Positions 3,474-57,273 of a DNA stretch of 64,000 bases are shown one piece after another. This DNA comes from Leptotrichia trevisanii DSM 22070 (GTDB lineage Bacteria; Fusobacteriota; Fusobacteriia; Fusobacteriales; Leptotrichiaceae). A program made the translations under genes and the position numbers. The stretch is from positions 1 to 64,000 of the forward strand of contig NZ_AXVL01000005.1 of NCBI RefSeq assembly GCF_000482505.1, given 5' to 3'. Within the stretch, counting starts at the first letter, position 1. Each line of letters begins with the position of its first letter. Under the pieces are notes generated by a model. That model had not been told where the DNA came from. It saw nothing but the letters and a program-made list of their open reading frames with translations, and made no database searches.

Positions 3474-3812
3474 TGGTGGAAATGACGGGAATCGAACCCG
3501 TGTCCAAAATAGAAAGTTCTTACTATCTTCTACAAGTTTAGTCTATTTAACGCTTTAACCGTTAGATATTAAACAGACAAAAGTCTAAAGGCGAGATTAT
3601 AAGATTTCCTCAAATGACATAATCATACATTTGAGTAAGCCATTAAAAATGACATCATCTAATGGGAAAATGGCGTTCCCAAAAGAGATGAGCCGCTATC
3701 TTAGGCAGCTAATGCGTAATTATCGTTTCCGATTATTTTTAAGTTGGATTTTAAAGCTCCCGCTTACTTGCCAATAATAATCTTTTTATCCTGTCGAAAC
3801 CAAAACATTCCC
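3474..3812 (-). ncRNA. ssrA: transfer-messenger RNA (tmRNA)
   Basis: tmRNA rescues stalled ribosomes and tags the unfinished protein. The 5' end GGGAATG pairs with CATTTCC next to the 3' ACCA, forming a 7-bp acceptor stem; the T arm with GGTTCGAATCC-type sequence is at the 3' end. The tag frame is at 3701-3730 and encodes GNDNYALAA followed by TAA, with GGA as resume codon, assigned by aligning the UAAUCG context with the E. coli UAGUCG. The gene is one-piece, about 339 nt, and is followed by a terminator. Confidence 0.95.
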
Positions 3813-21558: not shown

Positions 21559-22203
21559 TTAATATCTATCTCTTTCAAACATCTGATACAATATTCCGTG
21601 CAATACTGCCACAGCCACTGTGCTTCCGCCTTTTGTACCGTTAGTCCTTATAAACGGCACATCGTAACCTGAAAGTGCCGCCTTTGATTCAGGGCATCCT
21701 ACAAAGCCTACTGGCACTCCTGCAATCAATTTAGGTTTTTCTGCTCCATCTTTATCTATCTCTTCAAGAAGTTTAAATAATGCTGTTGGAGCATTTCCAA
21801 TCAAAAATATTTTTGTATCCTTATCTTTTACTGCTCTTTCAATTCCAACCATTGATCTTGTAATTCCTCTTTCCTTAGCTTCTTTTGCCACTTCCTCGTC
21901 ATTTACAAGGCAGTATGCCGAACATCCAAATTTCGAAAGTCCCATTTTATTTAATCCAGTAACAATCATATTTGTATCGCAATATATCCTACACCCTGAT
22001 TTTATCGCTTCCATAGCCGAATTTACAGCATCATTATGAAACTCTGTAATATCTGCATAACCAAAATCCCCAGTAGTATGCACAAGCCTTTTCACAATCG
22101 GTTTCTCATTTTCAGCAAAATGATCAACTTTGTTCCCCAACCCTTCCGTTATTATCTCAAAACTTCTAACTTCTATCCCTTTCGGATCTTTAATATATGA
22201 CAT
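21559..22203 (-). CDS. cbiC: cobalt-precorrin-8 methylmutase CbiC (CobH)
   Basis: CbiC moves a methyl group from C11 to C12 to give cobyrinate. The 214-residue protein has the family motif RLVHTTGDFGYAD with the catalytic His42, then YCDTNMIVTGLNK and LIAGVPVGFVGCPESKAAL, and the C-terminal PFIRTNGTKGGSTVAVA. The ATG has a strong Shine-Dalgarno (AAAGGAG). It precedes cbiD by 33 nt; a 634-bp repeat-filled gap separates it from cbiA. Confidence 0.96.
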   Translation of the reverse strand: MSYIKDPKGIEVRSFEIITEGLGNKVDHFAENEKPIVKRLVHTTGDFGYADITEFHNDAVNSAMEAIKSGCRIYCDTNMIVTGLNKMGLSKFGCSAYCLVNDEEVAKEAKERGITRSMVGIERAVKDKDTKIFLIGNAPTALFKLLEEIDKDGAEKPKLIAGVPVGFVGCPESKAALSGYDVPFIRTNGTKGGSTVAVAVLHGILYQMFERDRY

Positions 22204-22375
22204 AAATTCATTCTCCTTTTTTTGTATTTTTTATTTTTATTTAGGTGTATTTGATAATTTATTTTCACTTATTCAATTTAATGTTTGATGGTTTTTATTT
22301 AAACTTTGATAAAATAAATTATTGTTAATATATATTTTTTTCTTTTACTTCAATATTTTTTCTTTTTTTTAATGT

Positions 22376-22515
22376 AAAGGAAATCAGTCGCCATCCCCTT
22401 TACAATCCCGGCTCGTCTAAGCATTTTTTGAAAATAAAATCGAAACTCGCTACGTTAAACTTCGCTCAAACAGTCAATTTCATTTCCAAAAAATCACGAC
22501 AATTTTATATTATTC
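22376..22515 (+). repeat. dispersed intergenic repeat, family 1, copy A
   Basis: Starts with a hairpin: AAAGG and CCTTT arms with inner AT/AT pairs around the 8-nt loop CAGTCGCC (22385-22392). This is followed by ACAATCCCGGCTCGTCTAAG and, further on, AAACTCGCT and a segment matching copy B2 (CCAAAAAATCACGACA). Copies occur at 36079-36200 (same strand) and 36340-36683 (opposite strand). It lies in the cbiA-cbiC gap, which holds no gene. No transposase is linked to any copy. Confidence 0.7.
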
Positions 22516-22558
22516 CCTATTTAAAAAACGAAAAATTATATTTTAGTTTTAATAAACT

Positions 22559-22690
22559 GACGGAGCTTTTATTTGTTCAACTACGACTGTCTGACGACTG
22601 AAAGGAGGAGTTTCGGAGTTGGACAAATAAAAGTCGTAGTCTAGCCATAGGTGTAGAATTTGCGGCAATGAGCAATCCTGCAAAAAAAGA
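22559..22690 (+). repeat. structured intergenic repeat, family 2, copy A
   Basis: The left flank GGAGC is followed by a 17-bp inverted repeat (22566-22582 with 22617-22633, one G-U pair), an apical part with CTGTCTGA, and then GTCGTAGTCTAGCCATAGG and TTTGCGGCAATGAGCAATCC. The same flanks occur at 53590-53775 around a different but also complementary pair of arms. This points to a folded RNA or DNA element rather than chance. Confidence 0.65.
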
Positions 22691-22837
22691 AAAAATATAA
22701 TAAAAATAGTAAAAACTGTTATTAAACAAAATAATCCGAAATTAAACCCTATTAGACTAATTACTTTTACATAAAAAATATATGAAAATTACAAAAAAAG
22801 CATTTATTAATAAAAATTTTTTTCATAAAATTTTTAA

Positions 22838-24181
22838 CTACAACTCTTCTATTAAATATTTAAAAAATTCTATATTTGAATAAAAAGAAATATGCGGATA
22901 ACCTGCCAGCAGGCTCTTTTTCTTATATCCACAAACCCAATTTCTTCCATCGTTTTTTTCTATTTTGAAAAATTTTTCCTTTTCATTGTCTACAGAAATT
23001 TCTGAATAATGAAATTCGTGTCCTTTTGTACAAATCCCATTTTCAGTTTTTATATTTATGTATCCAAATCTTCCGATATTTAACCTGTTTTTCATGGAAA
23101 TTTCCACATCTATAATTCCGCAGAAATTCCCGCTATTTCCATCTAGCAAGTTCAGCTTATTCGTCAAATAGATAAATCCACCACATTCTCCATAGATTTT
23201 TACTCCATTTTCATAAGCCTGCCTTATGCTTTTCTTCGTGGAAACATTTTCAGACAATTCTTTCCAGTAAAGTTCGGGATAGCCTCCGCCAAGATAGATC
23301 ATATCCAGGTTTTCCGGTATTTTTTCATCTTTTATAGGACTGAATTCGACTATTTCCAAGCCTGAGAATTTCATAAGCGAAAGATTTGACTCATAGTAAA
23401 AGGAAAATGCCCTATCTTTGGCAATTCCCACACGTTTTCCTTTATACTTGCCCTTCAAGCCTTTTATTGGCTCAAAACAGTCCATATCTCCCTTAACTTG
23501 AAATTCTTCTGCTATTTCATAAATTCTTTCCAAATTTAAGCAATTTTGTGCAATTTTTTTAAACAGCTGTTTCTTTTCCTCAAGTTCTTTTGAACCTTTC
23601 AGTTCAAAAGCCTGTTTCAACCCCAAATGTCTGCTTTCCACCGATAATTTCTCATTTTTCGGCAAATATCCTACGCATTCTATCCCTGTAAATCTTTCTA
23701 CCGCTTCCTTCAAGTTCAAGTATAGCTTTTCAGAAGAAACATTATTTAAAATAATACCCTTTATTTTAACATTTTTGTCAAACAATTTGAAACCCAGAAC
23801 TTCGGCAGCTATACTTGTGGAGATTCCTTTTGCGTTAACTACGAGAATTACTGGAATATCAAGTATTCTTGATACATGAGCTGTACTAAAATTATCCTTT
23901 TCATGCCCAATTCCATCATAAAGCCCCATAACTCCCTCGACTATAGCGATATTACTGCCTTTTGCTCCTGTTTCAAATATATGCCTTAATGTGTTTTCGT
24001 CAAACATAAATGCATCCAGATTATAAGACTTGTTTCCTGTGAAAAGTTCATGATAGCCAGGATCAATGTAGTCAGGACCTACCTTAAAAGGTGCCACGTT
24101 TTCAAAAGCCGACATTAATATGCTGCTTACTGTAGTTTTCCCACTACCACTCATTGCTCCTGATATAAGTATTTTTTTCAT
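22838..24181 (-). CDS. cbiA: cobyrinate a,c-diamide synthase CbiA
   Basis: CbiA uses ATP and glutamine to amidate the a and c side chains of cobyrinate. The 447-residue protein has an N-terminal dethiobiotin-synthetase-like P-loop (GAMSGSGKTT, about residues 8-17), KVGPDYIDPGYHE, and a C-terminal class I glutaminase with nucleophile Cys333 in YGECGGFIYL. Its ATG overlaps the cbiO stop (ATGA), so the cobalt transporter and CbiA are translationally coupled. Confidence 0.96.
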   Translation of the reverse strand: MKKILISGAMSGSGKTTVSSILMSAFENVAPFKVGPDYIDPGYHELFTGNKSYNLDAFMFDENTLRHIFETGAKGSNIAIVEGVMGLYDGIGHEKDNFSTAHVSRILDIPVILVVNAKGISTSIAAEVLGFKLFDKNVKIKGIILNNVSSEKLYLNLKEAVERFTGIECVGYLPKNEKLSVESRHLGLKQAFELKGSKELEEKKQLFKKIAQNCLNLERIYEIAEEFQVKGDMDCFEPIKGLKGKYKGKRVGIAKDRAFSFYYESNLSLMKFSGLEIVEFSPIKDEKIPENLDMIYLGGGYPELYWKELSENVSTKKSIRQAYENGVKIYGECGGFIYLTNKLNLLDGNSGNFCGIIDVEISMKNRLNIGRFGYINIKTENGICTKGHEFHYSEISVDNEKEKFFKIEKNDGRNWVCGYKKKSLLAGYPHISFYSNIEFFKYLIEEL

Positions 24182-26733: not shown

Positions 26734-26873
26734 ATCCAATACACGTCAAAACTTCCATAATAATCACTATACCATCACTGTATAATATTATTTTATGGAA
26801 CAAATCACCGTTGATTTATTTTTATTGATGTATATCAAATCTTCCCTTCCCAGAAAATTTTATATAAAAATTA

Positions 26874-27032
26874 TTAGGCAAGTCTCCTGACTAACTTCAT
26901 CCTACTCGTACCCTTCCCAAAATATCCAGAATATTTCAGTGGTATCGTGTACTTTCATCAGTTTCACAGTAGTGGGGGCTGTATCGGATTCTAACCGATT
27001 TCCTTATTAAGTTTGGTAAAACACCTATAATT
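26874..27032 (-). ncRNA. cobalamin (AdoCbl) riboswitch
   Basis: On the minus strand this leader contains AATAAGGAAATCGGTTAGAATCCGATAC-type paired segments, the B12-box-like ACCACTG, GGGAAGGG near 26915, and the conserved 3' core AGTCAGGAGACTTGCC (about 26876-26891). These match the Rfam-type cobalamin riboswitch. It sits between its own promoter and cbiM and should repress the cobalt-import and B12 genes when cobalamin is plentiful. Boundaries are approximate. Confidence 0.92.
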
Positions 27033-27043
27033 TCTCTGTTATT

Positions 27044-35908: not shown

Positions 35909-36078
35909 CACCCTCATTTAAAAAATAGTAATAAAATTTTATAATAATTAGTTTGATAGCCTTATTAAAAAAATCAAATTTAATTTTTAAGTATCCATCT
36001 TAAAGGTTTTTGTAATTTTATTTATAAATATTATAATTAATAAATGCTTTTTCTTATTTCATTTATATGTTTTTTTAC

Positions 36079-36200
36079 GTAAGGGCATCAGACGCCATGC
36101 CCTTACAACCCCGCTTTACGCAAAACTTTCTTATAAAGAAAAAATAAAACTCGCTTTGTAAAACTACTCTCACTTTCGCAAACAAGAGTTATTTTAACAT
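36079..36200 (+). repeat. dispersed intergenic repeat, family 1, copy B1
   Basis: Starts with a perfect 10-bp stem (GTAAGGGCAT with ATGCCCTTAC) around loop CAGACGCC (36089-36096). ACAACCCCGC, AAACTCGCT and a CTCACTTTCGCAAACAAGAG segment follow. It aligns with copy A at 22376 in the same strand sense. It lies in the 1,077-bp gap between thiN and the pseudouridine synthase gene, which has no convincing coding sequence. Confidence 0.65.
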
Positions 36201-36339
36201 AAATAAGTTCTATCATTATAAAAATTATGGCGAAAGAAATACATTCGTATTTAGTTATTTTTCCTTTAACGAAATTTTGCTTATTTAATATTTTCAAAAT
36301 GTTAAAACCTAAAATTTAAATATAATAATCTTTATAATT

Positions 36340-52694: not shown

Positions 52695-53414
52695 ATGAAA
52701 AGAAGACTATTATTTATTTTATCGGTATTTTTAATTTGCTCACTTTTTGCTTTTGGCGAAAACTTTCCAGATAAATCAAAAAATATAGATGGATTTATTC
52801 CAAAAGGCTGGAAATCAATTCTTTCGGCTAAAGGGGATTTGAATAACGATAAACTTGAAGATACCGTCGTTGTTATTGAAAAAGAAGATAAGGCGAACAT
52901 TGTAAAAAACGAGAATCTTGGCTCTGAATATTTAAACTTGAATCCAAGAATACTTTTGGTTTTATTCAAGCAAAAAAATGGAAGCTATATTTTGGCAAGC
53001 AAGAATGACAAAGATTTTATCAAAAGTGAAGGAGATAAGGAAAATCCAGCTCTTATGGATACTTTAGACAACATCAGCATAAAAAATAATATTTTAAAAA
53101 TTAAATTTAATTATTTTTTGAGTGCAGGAAGCTGGTCAGTAACACAAAATACCTACACTTTTAGATTTCAAAACAAAAAATTCGAACTTATCGGATTTGA
53201 CAGCAATTCATATATGAGAAATTCTGGCAATCAAGAGGAATTTAGCATTAATTTTTCTACTAATAAAGTAAAAATTACTACTGGCGGAAATATGTTTGAT
53301 GAAAAGGCAAATAAACCTAAGGAAGAATGGAAAACTATTAAAGCTAATAAAAAATATGTGTTAGATGAAATGACGAGCGATATAGTCGATGAGATTGCGA
53401 AATATGTTTATTAG
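52695..53414 (+). CDS. secreted protein with EF-hand-like motif
   Basis: The 239-residue protein has signal peptide MKRRLLFILSVFLICSLFAFG (cleavage near 21). A stretch AKGDLNNDKLEDTVVVIEK near residues 50-68 resembles the calcium loop of FG-GAP/integrin-like repeats (D-x-N-x-D-x-x-x-D). The rest is strand-rich. Probably periplasmic or surface-exposed. It follows cobD by 31 bp but has no evident link to B12. Confidence 0.7.
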   Translation: MKRRLLFILSVFLICSLFAFGENFPDKSKNIDGFIPKGWKSILSAKGDLNNDKLEDTVVVIEKEDKANIVKNENLGSEYLNLNPRILLVLFKQKNGSYILASKNDKDFIKSEGDKENPALMDTLDNISIKNNILKIKFNYFLSAGSWSVTQNTYTFRFQNKKFELIGFDSNSYMRNSGNQEEFSINFSTNKVKITTGGNMFDEKANKPKEEWKTIKANKKYVLDEMTSDIVDEIAKYVY

Positions 53415-53589
53415 GATTTTAAATGGGGATTCTTATGATTTATAAGATATTCCCTATTATTTTATATTAAATCCCATTTAAATAACGAATTTATTACAAA
53501 TTTTTCTAATTAAAGGATAAAACTTAATATTTTCAAATGATTAAAACATAATTTTTACTTTTTAAATAGATTTTAGTATAAATTAATCG

Positions 53590-53775
53590 GTCGGAGCATT
53601 TTTCTGTACTGGCAAAACTGTCTGAGCATAGCGAGTTTTTTGTCAGTGCAGAAAAATGTCGTAGACTAGCCATAGGTTATTGCGTAGCAATTCTTGCCAC
53701 AATTTTAATTATTAGGACAAACCTTTTCTGCAAGATAAGGATTTGCGGCAATGAGCAATCCTACGAAAATAAAAA
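53590..53775 (+). repeat. structured intergenic repeat, family 2, copy C
   Basis: Same flanks as the copy at 22559-22690: GGAGC at the left, GTCGTAGACTAGCCATAGG after the hairpin, and TTTGCGGCAATGAGCAATCC at the right. The hairpin is different: a ~22-bp stem (53597-53619 with 53634-53658, two G-U pairs and one bulge). An extra ~65 nt, with a small ATTGC/GCAAT hairpin, lies between the last two conserved blocks. It is part of the 739-bp gap 53415-54154, which has no gene. Confidence 0.65.
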
Positions 53776-53929
53776 AGAAAAAACATAGTAATATGAAAAA
53801 ATACTTATTAATAAAATATCCAAAAAATAATAAAAAATAATTTAGTTGAATGATTATGAGTTAATTATCAAACAACTCTATTATAAAAATTTATTCCTAT
53901 TTTCAAAAGGGGTTTAGTATTATAGTAAA

Positions 53930-54642: not shown

Positions 54643-57273
54643 ATGACAGAATATCAGGTATTTTTTCTTGAAAAATTAAAAGATGATTTGGAATTTAAGA
54701 AATTTATTTACATTCTTTCATTTTATGCTTTGGTAGGAACTGAAAAGAAAAAAGCAAAAACAATAGAACTTTCTGAAGAATATCAGAAAAATCAAGCTGA
54801 AATTGAGAAGAAATTTTATAACGAATATAAAGCTATTAGATTACATATTTTTGAAAATATGCGAAAAAATAATCCTGCAGTAAATGAAAATACGATAATT
54901 GAAAAAGTTCAAAAATTATTGGATAGATTCTTGTTTATCTGCTTTTGTGAAGACAAAGGCTTATTGCCAAATAATATTTTTCATAAAACTTTGGAAAAAG
55001 GAAAAAAGATCGAAAATATTTTTGAAATTTTTTCATCATTGTGTAGATGGATAGACATAGGAAATTCAAGAGAAAATATTCCTCGTTTTAATGGTGGATT
55101 ATTCAAAAATGATGATATTTTGGATGGACTTTATGTCGATAATGAAGTTTTTGAAGAAATGAAAAAAATATCTGAATATGATTTTGACTCTGAACTGAAT
55201 GAAAATATCTTGGGGCATATTTTTGAGCAATCTATAAGCGATATAGAGGATTTGAAAAAAGAATTAAATGGGGAAGAATTTGACAAGAAAAAAGGGAAAC
55301 GTAAAAAAGACGGTATTTTTTACACACCAAAATATATAACAAAATACATTGTAGAAAATTCGATAAAAAACTGGCTTGACGACAAACGAAAAGAGCTAGG
55401 CGAAGATAAACTTCCTGAACTGACAGAAAAAGATTTTGAAATAAAATATAGCAGTAAAAAAAGTGATGAAAGAATTTACAGCAAAAATTACAAAAAACAT
55501 ATAGAATTTTGGACAAAATACAGAGAGGCTGTAAAAAATATAAAAATTGTAGATCCAGCTTGCGGAAGCGGAGCATTTTTAATCACAGCCTTTGAATATT
55601 TATTAAATTACAACAATTATTTAAACGATAAAATTTTTGATTTGACAGGAACAAAAGATTTATTTTCCGATACGACAAAGGAAATCTTGCAAAATAATAT
55701 TTTTGGCGTAGATTTGAATAAGGAAAGTGTAGAAATTACGAAATTATCATTGTGGCTAAAAACTGCTGATAAAAATAAAACACTTGCAACACTTGAAAAT
55801 AATATAAAATGTGGAAATTCATTGATTGATGATATTGAGATTGCTGGGGAATTGGCGTTTAATTGGGAGAAGGAGTTTCCGCAAGTGTTTGAAAATGGTG
55901 GATTTGATGTTGTGGTGGGGAATCCGCCGTATGTTTCTACAAAACAAATACCAGTAAATGACAGAAATTATTATTGGGATAAATACAAAGAAATTTTATT
56001 TTCTGAAATGGATTTATATGAAATATTTATATATAAATCAATAAATGAATTCTTGAAAAATAAAGGTTATCTAGGATTTATTACACGTGATTCTTATTTT
56101 ACAAATACAAGTTTTGAATTATTAAGAAAATATTTACTAGAAAAAACTAAAATTATTGAAATAATTGATTTTCCATATAGATTTTATCCATTTAAAGAAG
56201 TTAATACGGAAACAGCTATTCTTATTTTAAATAAAAAAATAGATAAGAATTTTGTAAATTTAAGAGTATCAAATAGAAATGTAAATAATTTATATTTGAA
56301 AGAAAGTTTAAAAAATAATATTCAACTCAGCCAAGAAGAAATATTAATGAAGTATAATAATAAAATAATAGTTAATATAAATTCAATTTTAAACAAATTA
56401 TTAAAAAATAGTTTAAGATTTGGGGATTACCTAGAATTGCATAAGGGATGGATGAGTATTCCTAAAAAAATAAAAATAGGTTTAACAGAAATAGAAAAAG
56501 GGATATTTACTAAAGAAGAAGCAATAAAAAATAATATTATTAATAATTGTTCTGAATACTTGGAGGGTAGAGATATTCATAGATATTTTACTGATAAAGT
56601 AAATAAATATGTTTATATAAAAAATATTGATAAAACAACGAAAGAGTGGCATTTTTCTCCTAAAATAATACTTCAAAGAATAGTTGGTCAAAATAGAAAT
56701 AAAATATTTGCAACAATAGACTTGAATCAAAAAATTATATTTCCGAATGCAAATTTAGTTAATTTGAAAAATAAAAAAGATGATGTAAGATTTTATTTAA
56801 CAATTTTGAATTCTAGATTAATTAGCTATTTTTACAATTTATATTATGGAGAATCAAATACTAATTTAACCAAAATAGCTTTTGAAAATATTCCATTAGT
56901 TAATATAGAAAATATAAATCAACAGTCTTTTATTGAAAAAGCTAATAAAATGTTATCTTTAAATAAAGAATTACAAGAAATTTCACAAAAATTTCAACGA
57001 ATGATTATGAGAGAATTTAGTTTAGAAAAAATTTCTACTAAATTACAAAATTGGTATTTGTTAAATTTTGATAAATTTATAAAAGAGTTATCAAAAGTAA
57101 AAGTGAAATTAAACCTTTCTCAAAAAGCTGATTGGGAGGATTATTTCATTGCAGAAAAATCAAAAGCAGAAACATTAAATAATGAAATTACAAAAACGGA
57201 TAAAGAGATTGATGGGATGGTTTATGAACTGTATGGGTTGAGTGAGGAGGAGGTTAAGGTTGTTGAAAGCTAA
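54643..57273 (+). CDS. Eco57I-type DNA methyltransferase and specificity part of a type IIG enzyme
   Basis: The 876-residue frame holds the adenine methyltransferase: motif I VDPACGSGAFL (about residues 303-313), motif IV NPPY at 427-430, and HIFEQSISDIEDLKKE before the domain. A TaqI-like target-recognition region lies near 560-760, with a helical C-terminus. The intact enzyme would be about 1,040 residues including the nuclease part encoded at 54155-54547. The frame is open from about 54530; the ATG at 54643 has a weak ribosome binding site. If translated alone it would methylate without cutting. Confidence 0.85.
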   Translation: MTEYQVFFLEKLKDDLEFKKFIYILSFYALVGTEKKKAKTIELSEEYQKNQAEIEKKFYNEYKAIRLHIFENMRKNNPAVNENTIIEKVQKLLDRFLFICFCEDKGLLPNNIFHKTLEKGKKIENIFEIFSSLCRWIDIGNSRENIPRFNGGLFKNDDILDGLYVDNEVFEEMKKISEYDFDSELNENILGHIFEQSISDIEDLKKELNGEEFDKKKGKRKKDGIFYTPKYITKYIVENSIKNWLDDKRKELGEDKLPELTEKDFEIKYSSKKSDERIYSKNYKKHIEFWTKYREAVKNIKIVDPACGSGAFLITAFEYLLNYNNYLNDKIFDLTGTKDLFSDTTKEILQNNIFGVDLNKESVEITKLSLWLKTADKNKTLATLENNIKCGNSLIDDIEIAGELAFNWEKEFPQVFENGGFDVVVGNPPYVSTKQIPVNDRNYYWDKYKEILFSEMDLYEIFIYKSINEFLKNKGYLGFITRDSYFTNTSFELLRKYLLEKTKIIEIIDFPYRFYPFKEVNTETAILILNKKIDKNFVNLRVSNRNVNNLYLKESLKNNIQLSQEEILMKYNNKIIVNINSILNKLLKNSLRFGDYLELHKGWMSIPKKIKIGLTEIEKGIFTKEEAIKNNIINNCSEYLEGRDIHRYFTDKVNKYVYIKNIDKTTKEWHFSPKIILQRIVGQNRNKIFATIDLNQKIIFPNANLVNLKNKKDDVRFYLTILNSRLISYFYNLYYGESNTNLTKIAFENIPLVNIENINQQSFIEKANKMLSLNKELQEISQKFQRMIMREFSLEKISTKLQNWYLLNFDKFIKELSKVKVKLNLSQKADWEDYFIAEKSKAETLNNEITKTDKEIDGMVYELYGLSEEEVKVVES

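Follow-up and report, generated by a model that had tools for sequence, protein, structure and literature searches.

The two repeats at positions 22559 and 53590 of the Leptotrichia trevisanii DNA studied here are members of a large family of short mobile Leptotrichia elements that is absent from Rfam and shares one folded RNA. The fold is strand-specific, consists of several helices and has been kept by compensatory base changes, and the second of the two repeats entered its site as a discrete unit of 455 bp. Our preferred reading, to which a probability of roughly 0.6 is given, is that the copies in the window are non-autonomous, MITE-like Leptotrichia elements that carry a conserved structured RNA with a BOX/NEMIS-like role. 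RNA-bearing miniature repeats themselves are known already; this family is unusual in that one fold is shared by several sequence classes, and in its strand signature.

The window, i.e. the whole stretch of 64,000 nucleotides that was analysed, contains the two copies with their conserved blocks as an earlier note had described them, and GTCGTAG-x-CTAGCCATAGG was found to be exact at 22633-22651 and 53658-53676. Both copies are real, but they do not constitute the repeat pair that had been proposed: GTCGTAG-N-CTAGCCATAGG with up to three mismatches was counted 29 times in the whole genome (mirrored control pattern, 0), and the window repeats are two of these 29 near-exact copies. Two further copies in the window, both on the minus strand, were detected by cmsearch with the covariance model R1, at 22373-22500 and 36078-36216. 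The copies at 22559, at 53590 and at 22373-22500 represent three sequence classes, A, B and C, whose arms differ from class to class; class C has its own arms and its own 3′ hairpin, unlike A and B. The copy at 36078-36216 probably belongs to a fourth, more distant class D, and class D-like copies were also found at three other loci (L115, L183 and L236). The features of the window copies are as follows, where P1 to P4 denote helices.

22373..22500 (-): class C module with the architecture of A and a different sequence; cmsearch R1 100.8 bits, E 3.8e-23; class C covariation.
22559..22682 (+): class A module, short form (first copy); cmsearch R1 131 bits, E 1.4e-30.
22559..22561 (+): class A, 5′ strand of P1, GAC, with partner GTC at 22639-22641; covaries with class B GTC/GAC (pair 2-86).
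22566..22585 (+): class A, 5′ arm of the long hairpin P2, with the 3′ arm at 22614-22633; sequence and covariation.
22587..22613 (+): class A, apical part, CTGTCTGA..GAGTTT head; invariant columns, with tandem G-A pairs predicted to alternate with C-G pairs.
22643..22646 (+): class A, invariant AGCC, its GCC complementary to the GGC of the P4 loop; invariant columns, possible pseudoknot.
22653..22681 (+): class A, P4 hairpin with loop GGCAATGA at 22664-22671 and one A-C mismatch; sequence and cmsearch.
36078..36216 (-): probable class D copy, whose 3′ hairpin is GTAAGGGCATGGCGTCTGATGCCCTTAC; cmsearch R1 27.4 bits, E 4.8e-5.
53462-53464 and 53920-53922 (+): TTA triplets bordering the 455-bp unit; empty-site comparison.
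53465..53919 (+): inserted 455-bp MITE-like unit with the class B module and ends TATTAAATCCC...GGGGTTTAGTA; empty site in L206-L210.
53590..53766 (+): class B module, long form (second copy); cmsearch 90.0 bits (53590-53702) and 20.2 bits (P4, 53738-53762); fold.
53590..53592 (+): class B, 5′ strand of P1, GTC, with partner GAC at 53664-53666; sequence and covariation.
53597..53616 (+): class B, 5′ arm of P2, with the 3′ arm at 53639-53658; sequence and covariation.
53668..53671 (+): class B, invariant AGCC; invariant columns.
53679..53691 (+): class B, long-form hairpin ATTGC-GTA-GCAAT (class C: AGTGC-GTA-GCACT); helix comparison.
53693..53734 (+): class B, long-form helix CTTGC (53693-53697) / GCAAG (53730-53734) (class C: TTCGC/GCGAA); helix comparison.
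53738..53762 (+): class B, P4 hairpin with loop GGCAATGA at 53747-53754; cmsearch.

The pattern GTCGTAG-N-CTAGCCATAGG also occurs many times in L. hongkongensis and in Leptotrichia sp. oral taxon 879. Among 33 Leptotrichiaceae genomes a longer exact pattern was present in 11, every one of them a Leptotrichia, and its single matches in three unrelated organisms (L049, L054, L061) were excluded as chance. With the covariance model R1 at least 10 matches were obtained in 12 of 13 Leptotrichia genomes and one in the thirteenth; at least 36 were obtained in 8 of the 13, the true numbers being higher. Other genera within the Leptotrichiaceae gave no match to R1, and weak matches were found in four genomes of Fusobacteriaceae. 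No Rfam covariance model matched the Leptotrichia copies or those from the wider phylum, either at the gathering threshold or at E values up to 0.5-1, and no publication on the repeat or its motif was found in a literature search that covered few subscription journals.

The order of elements is common to all classes: P1, a closing helix of 3 bp, is followed by a short internal loop, P2 of about 20 bp, the head, AGCC and finally P4 with its GGC loop. P1 is GAC/GTC in class A and GTC/GAC in classes B and C. The base x of GTCGTAG-x-C, which had been noted merely as variable, has as its partner the middle base of the 5′ G-N-C, giving GAC/GTC in class A and GTC/GAC in class B, and thereby belongs to the closing helix. 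In each copy the arms of P2 are complementary over 20 consecutive positions, with one A-G mismatch in class A (columns 25/62 of alignment A2). The observation that the arms are unrelated and still complementary thus stands for the two copies, but their difference is one of class membership, since arms are very similar within a class. AGCC and GGC are invariant through the alignment columns of A, B and C, and GCC and GGC could form a pseudoknot. Many copies have a long form with two extra helices, P3a and P3b, between AGCC and P4; in copy B about 57 extra bases lie between CTAGCCATAGG and GCGGCAATGAGCAATCC. The same P3a and P3b helices are formed in A/B and in C with changed bases, and one A/B copy (L080) has ATTAC-GTA-GTAAT in place of ATTGC-GTA-GCAAT. 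An A-rich stretch 3′ of P4 is common to A, B and C. Single sequences of the short form fold at z = -5.2 to -5.8 relative to dinucleotide shuffles, and the whole window copy B at z = -3.6.

Selection on the fold was assessed in alignments. In a plain MAFFT alignment of A, B and C, which was built without structure information, 95.9% of the cells were paired, compared with 71.9% after shuffling of columns and 42-49% when the partners were slid against each other; both sides were changed in 24 of the 33 pairs, and the covariation score was 0.700 vs 0.245. The arms of classes A and B vary little within their class, and this first covariation signal is one between classes. Class C, whose alignment is unambiguous, provides the strongest test within a class: in its 25 sequences 99.0% of the cells were paired (slid versions, 44-58%), and 56 cells had both sides changed compared with 18.3 after shuffling, although the copies are related and covariation cells are not independent events, so that such counts overstate independence. 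RNAalifold, run on class C unprompted, returned the same fold except for the innermost base pairs of P2. Among the mispairs over A, B and C there were 285 G-U and 9 A-C; when only cells that depart from the majority of their class are counted, 59 G-U and 9 A-C. A strand-neutral palindrome is expected to show the two in equal numbers, and the large excess of G-U therefore indicates that it is the modelled strand which folds, as it would in an RNA. This asymmetry points to an RNA of the modelled strand. The claim that pairing kept through base changes marks a selected structure is hence borne out by compensatory changes both between classes and within class C together with the 285 G-U against 9 A-C, and the search for more copies without covariation, by which that claim might have fallen, was run and did not refute it.

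The head is a tandem G·A motif, UGUYUGA-stem-GAGUUU in RNA and CTGTYTGA...GAGTTT as a DNA pattern. In class A it is readable as tandem G-A and C-G pairs in alternation, and in B, C and D as a tandem G-A beside a stem of at least 2 bp (GCATAGC or GCGNAGC; GCACGATTAGTGC in genome G010). Of 98 Fusobacteriota genomes, 31 contain the pattern CTGTYTGA-RCGNAGY-GAGTTT, mostly more than once, and the mirror control gave 0; among the 150 matches listed, the R..Y pair was by hand count A-T or G-C in 147, G-T in 2 and A-C in 1. Set against the k-turn definition, a tandem sheared G-A beside a 3-nt bulge that separates two stems, the head has GA/GA and a 2-bp stem that covaries, and its bulge reads 5 nt (UGUYU). 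As judged from its sequence, the head looks like a k-turn-type candidate protein site. Outside the head, the elements of the wider phylum that carry it are built differently from the Leptotrichia modules. Those of G074-G076 end in a hairpin whose loop, TTCAAG, is complementary to an upstream CTTGAA; a CTTGA/TCAAG pseudoknot 3′ of the head in other Fusobacteriota is clear in this G074-G076 type, the scoring control being too loose for generalisation. At the loci L319-L324 and L327, from other Fusobacteriota and one viral contig, the head was observed upstream of a TCAAG-loop hairpin complementary to CTTGA, likely an H-type pseudoknot repeat.

That a mobile element might be involved had been the other half of the earlier proposal, and it was confirmed for copy B, which lies inside a precise 455-bp insertion absent from five relatives. 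Where the window has these extra bases, G006, G007, G008, G009 and G013 show CCCTATTATTTTATAGTAAAAC without interruption, G013 with a single base difference farther to the right; the precise insertion thus rests on one site compared with five relatives. TTA is present on both sides of the unit and once in the empty site. The flanking triplets of 46 units are mostly TAA or TTA (TWA); left and right triplets were identical in 23 of the 46 vs 18.2 after permutation, which is not above permutation. Inverted ends on both sides of A/B modules were found in 21 of 107 copies and at 2.2% of random positions; 35 A/B copies with both ends have lengths of 327-594 bp, and copy B has both the size of a MITE, less than about 600 bp, and its terminal inverted repeats. 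Class C lacks MITE ends of the A/B type (right end in 2 of 44 copies, left end in 1 of 44); its copies share about 235 bp that begin just 5′ of P1. The part common to all classes is therefore the RNA module and not a terminal repeat. Three shorter units with the same ends and no RNA module (L084, L090 and L110) look like internal deletions.

Neither for the A and C pair at 22290-22760, where the intergenic region is unrelated in the relatives, nor for the class C copy L232, where different elements occupy the site by species and no clean junction was seen, did the empty-site comparison give a clean result. Plasmids and phages gave no match to the B unit; one viral contig holds the P4 core. No match to Y1_Tnp (PF01797) was obtained in the L. 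trevisanii genome and no matching ends at 30 DDE_Tnp_1 loci, and no autonomous partner with the same ends was found in the searches for Y1 in the own genome, TnpB and DDE_Tnp_1. By sequence reading, the 455-bp unit lies just 3′ of a hairpin and U-rich stretch that follow the gene at 52695-53414. Several rearrangements were additionally observed: hairpins were lost through deletions at short direct repeats in L012 (AAAAATG) and L113, and in L356 the 3′ half of a class C element is fused to a reversed class B element.

The genomic setting was recorded for about 100 loci. Tandem-gene gaps hold 29 modules in sense and 35 in antisense orientation, convergent gaps 25 and divergent gaps 6; no strand preference of insertion relative to genes and no recurrent neighbouring gene family were seen among them. 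In the sets examined every copy was intergenic except one, which an open reading frame overlaps. The genes cbiC (21559-22203) and cbiA (22838-24181) flank the window copies A and C. They stand back to back in the cobalamin cluster, C at 22373-22500 (-) and A at 22559-22682 (+), parting co-directional genes. A TATAA(T/A) box is located 12-13 bases 5′ of P1 in most class B modules; it occurs within the last 26 bases before 46 of 62 of these modules vs 8 after shuffling, the copies sharing ancestry, and may be regarded as a weak candidate for a class B promoter. Sites resembling promoters or terminators were no more frequent around the window copies than expected by chance.

According to the preferred reading, transcription of the module would depend on its own -10-like box or on read-through, and the transcript would fold with a GCC:GGC pseudoknot, its G-A head probably binding a protein. 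The DNA of A and B would be moved in trans by a transposase that recognises inverted TACTAAACCCC ends and cuts at TWA targets. RNA landing in intergenic, often 3′ flanking, transcribed DNA may then, by analogy with BOX and NEMIS repeats, act as a stable protein-bound block, and such a block might alter or shield the transcript, so that the element persists. A different role for the same RNA, as a trans-acting working part of the element that is bound via the G-A head and without which the repeats would not move or be maintained, seems unlikely. If it held, classes A-D and the wider Fusobacteriota hairpins would form one phylum-wide class of RNA-bearing miniature transposons, whose shared part would be the RNA and not the terminal repeats.

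The same hairpins could act as single-stranded DNA, for instance as recognition ends of a Y1 (IS200/REP-type) transposase or of some other recombinase that binds hairpins, with the RNA incidental. REP/IS200 ends typically take the form of dispersed hairpins, and GCGNAGC, which occurs in many heads, is an unusually stable DNA mini-hairpin; the strand asymmetry alone would be compatible, as G-T wobble is tolerated in single-stranded DNA too. Yet the own genome is without a Y1_Tnp (PF01797) match, the unit in which copy B moved is bounded by outer inverted ends and not by the hairpin feet, and the multi-helix part with the P3 helices exceeds what a hairpin end needs, which leaves this explanation improbable. 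An origin as omega-RNA of a TnpB/IscB-type RNA-guided nuclease transposon, left behind as non-autonomous copies, would account for a structured RNA with a possible pseudoknot within a mobile element, and TnpB is abundant in some Leptotrichia; it is nevertheless very unlikely, because TnpB is lacking in the own genome and in G006-G009, which are among the richest in repeats, the TnpB-richest genome (G014) has one repeat match, a module was located at the gene in none of 20 TnpB loci (the single match being a separate copy about 1.4 kb off), and neither HEARO nor any other Rfam model matched. The link to TnpB, anti-correlated across genomes and without a module at tnpB genes, was rejected.

The intergenic position of all copies bar one and the rarity of divergent gaps (6, compared with 25 convergent) would suit a cis-acting mRNA element, such as a riboswitch, attenuator or terminator, that was spread by duplication. 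Its orientation between tandem genes is without preference (29 sense, 35 antisense), so that a single cis-regulatory role is not supported; moreover, no neighbour family recurs, with cbiC and cbiA being unrelated neighbours, and no U-tract terminator is present. We consider such an element to be improbable. The least credible explanation is that of passive inverted repeats, i.e. relics of transposon palindromes whose structure is not selected: MITEs often contain palindromes, and deletions have removed the hairpin from some copies (L012, L113), but neutral palindromes would lose their pairing and show A-C and G-U in equal numbers instead of 9 and 285, and class C contains compensatory changes. 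The strand asymmetry refutes passive palindromes, unless it is itself mimicked by a biased mutation process.

Comparable elements are known from other bacteria. The pneumococcal BOX repeats are, like RUP and SPRITE, dispersed; they are modular, RNA folding has been predicted for them, and some are expressed (Croucher et al. 2011, PMC3049150). Like BOX, the Leptotrichia elements are short, present in high copy number, intergenic, parasitic-looking and modular, and the optional boxB resembles their long form; this likeness rests on the description in PMC3049150, sequence comparison having been limited to Rfam. They differ in belonging to another genus and in having several classes on one fold, the strand signature, the G-A head and AGCC/GGC. 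Transcripts containing Correia elements are cut by RNase III at the inverted repeats (reviewed in PMC10969869). The neisserial NEMIS/Correia elements are likewise MITEs whose transcripts fold into stem-loops, but the Correia hairpin is made of the inverted ends, whereas the conserved Leptotrichia RNA is internal and multi-helical. The bcr1 repeat of Bacillus cereus folds as RNA. Going by the title of a paper by Kristoffersen et al. (2011; cited in PMC4666352), bcr1-bcr18 together are dispersed, mobile-looking intergenic repeats. Compared by description alone, they differ from the Leptotrichia family in belonging to a different phylum. REP/BIME and RAYT-associated repeats are short, palindromic and dispersed (PMC3733652); unlike these, the Leptotrichia family has units of 235-455 bp instead of 20-40 bp, and the L. 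trevisanii genome gave no match to a Y1 transposase. The Leptotrichia family may be comparable to BOX and NEMIS, and membership in any such family is not claimed. It is a clear natural case of one RNA fold shared by several bacterial repeat classes, whether through convergence or through common descent, and the strand signature separates selection for RNA from mere palindromes. As the family is abundant in a genus of the human mouth and lacking from Rfam, with a head motif found across the phylum, dozens of intergenic regions per genome that are now unannotated could become annotated RNAs.

Some further observations concern the surroundings of the repeats. The DNA to the right of copy B (53923 to about 54045, TAGTAAAACTGCTTTAAAAC...) is a second repeat, which G013 has at the cbiC site (L211) and G005, G006 and G008 do not; a separate repeat of about 155 bp, with more than 20 copies in G005, lies at about 304-461 of L232, where it adjoins a class C element. 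Matches to TnpB-family genes number 58 in G014 and 45 in G016, and several genomes that rank among the richest in RNA repeats have no such gene. A large Eco57I/MmeI-like restriction-modification protein is encoded at 54643-57273, a short way downstream of copy B. Elsewhere in the window, a cobalamin riboswitch is located at 26860-27043 (-) and a tmRNA gene at 3474-3812 (-).
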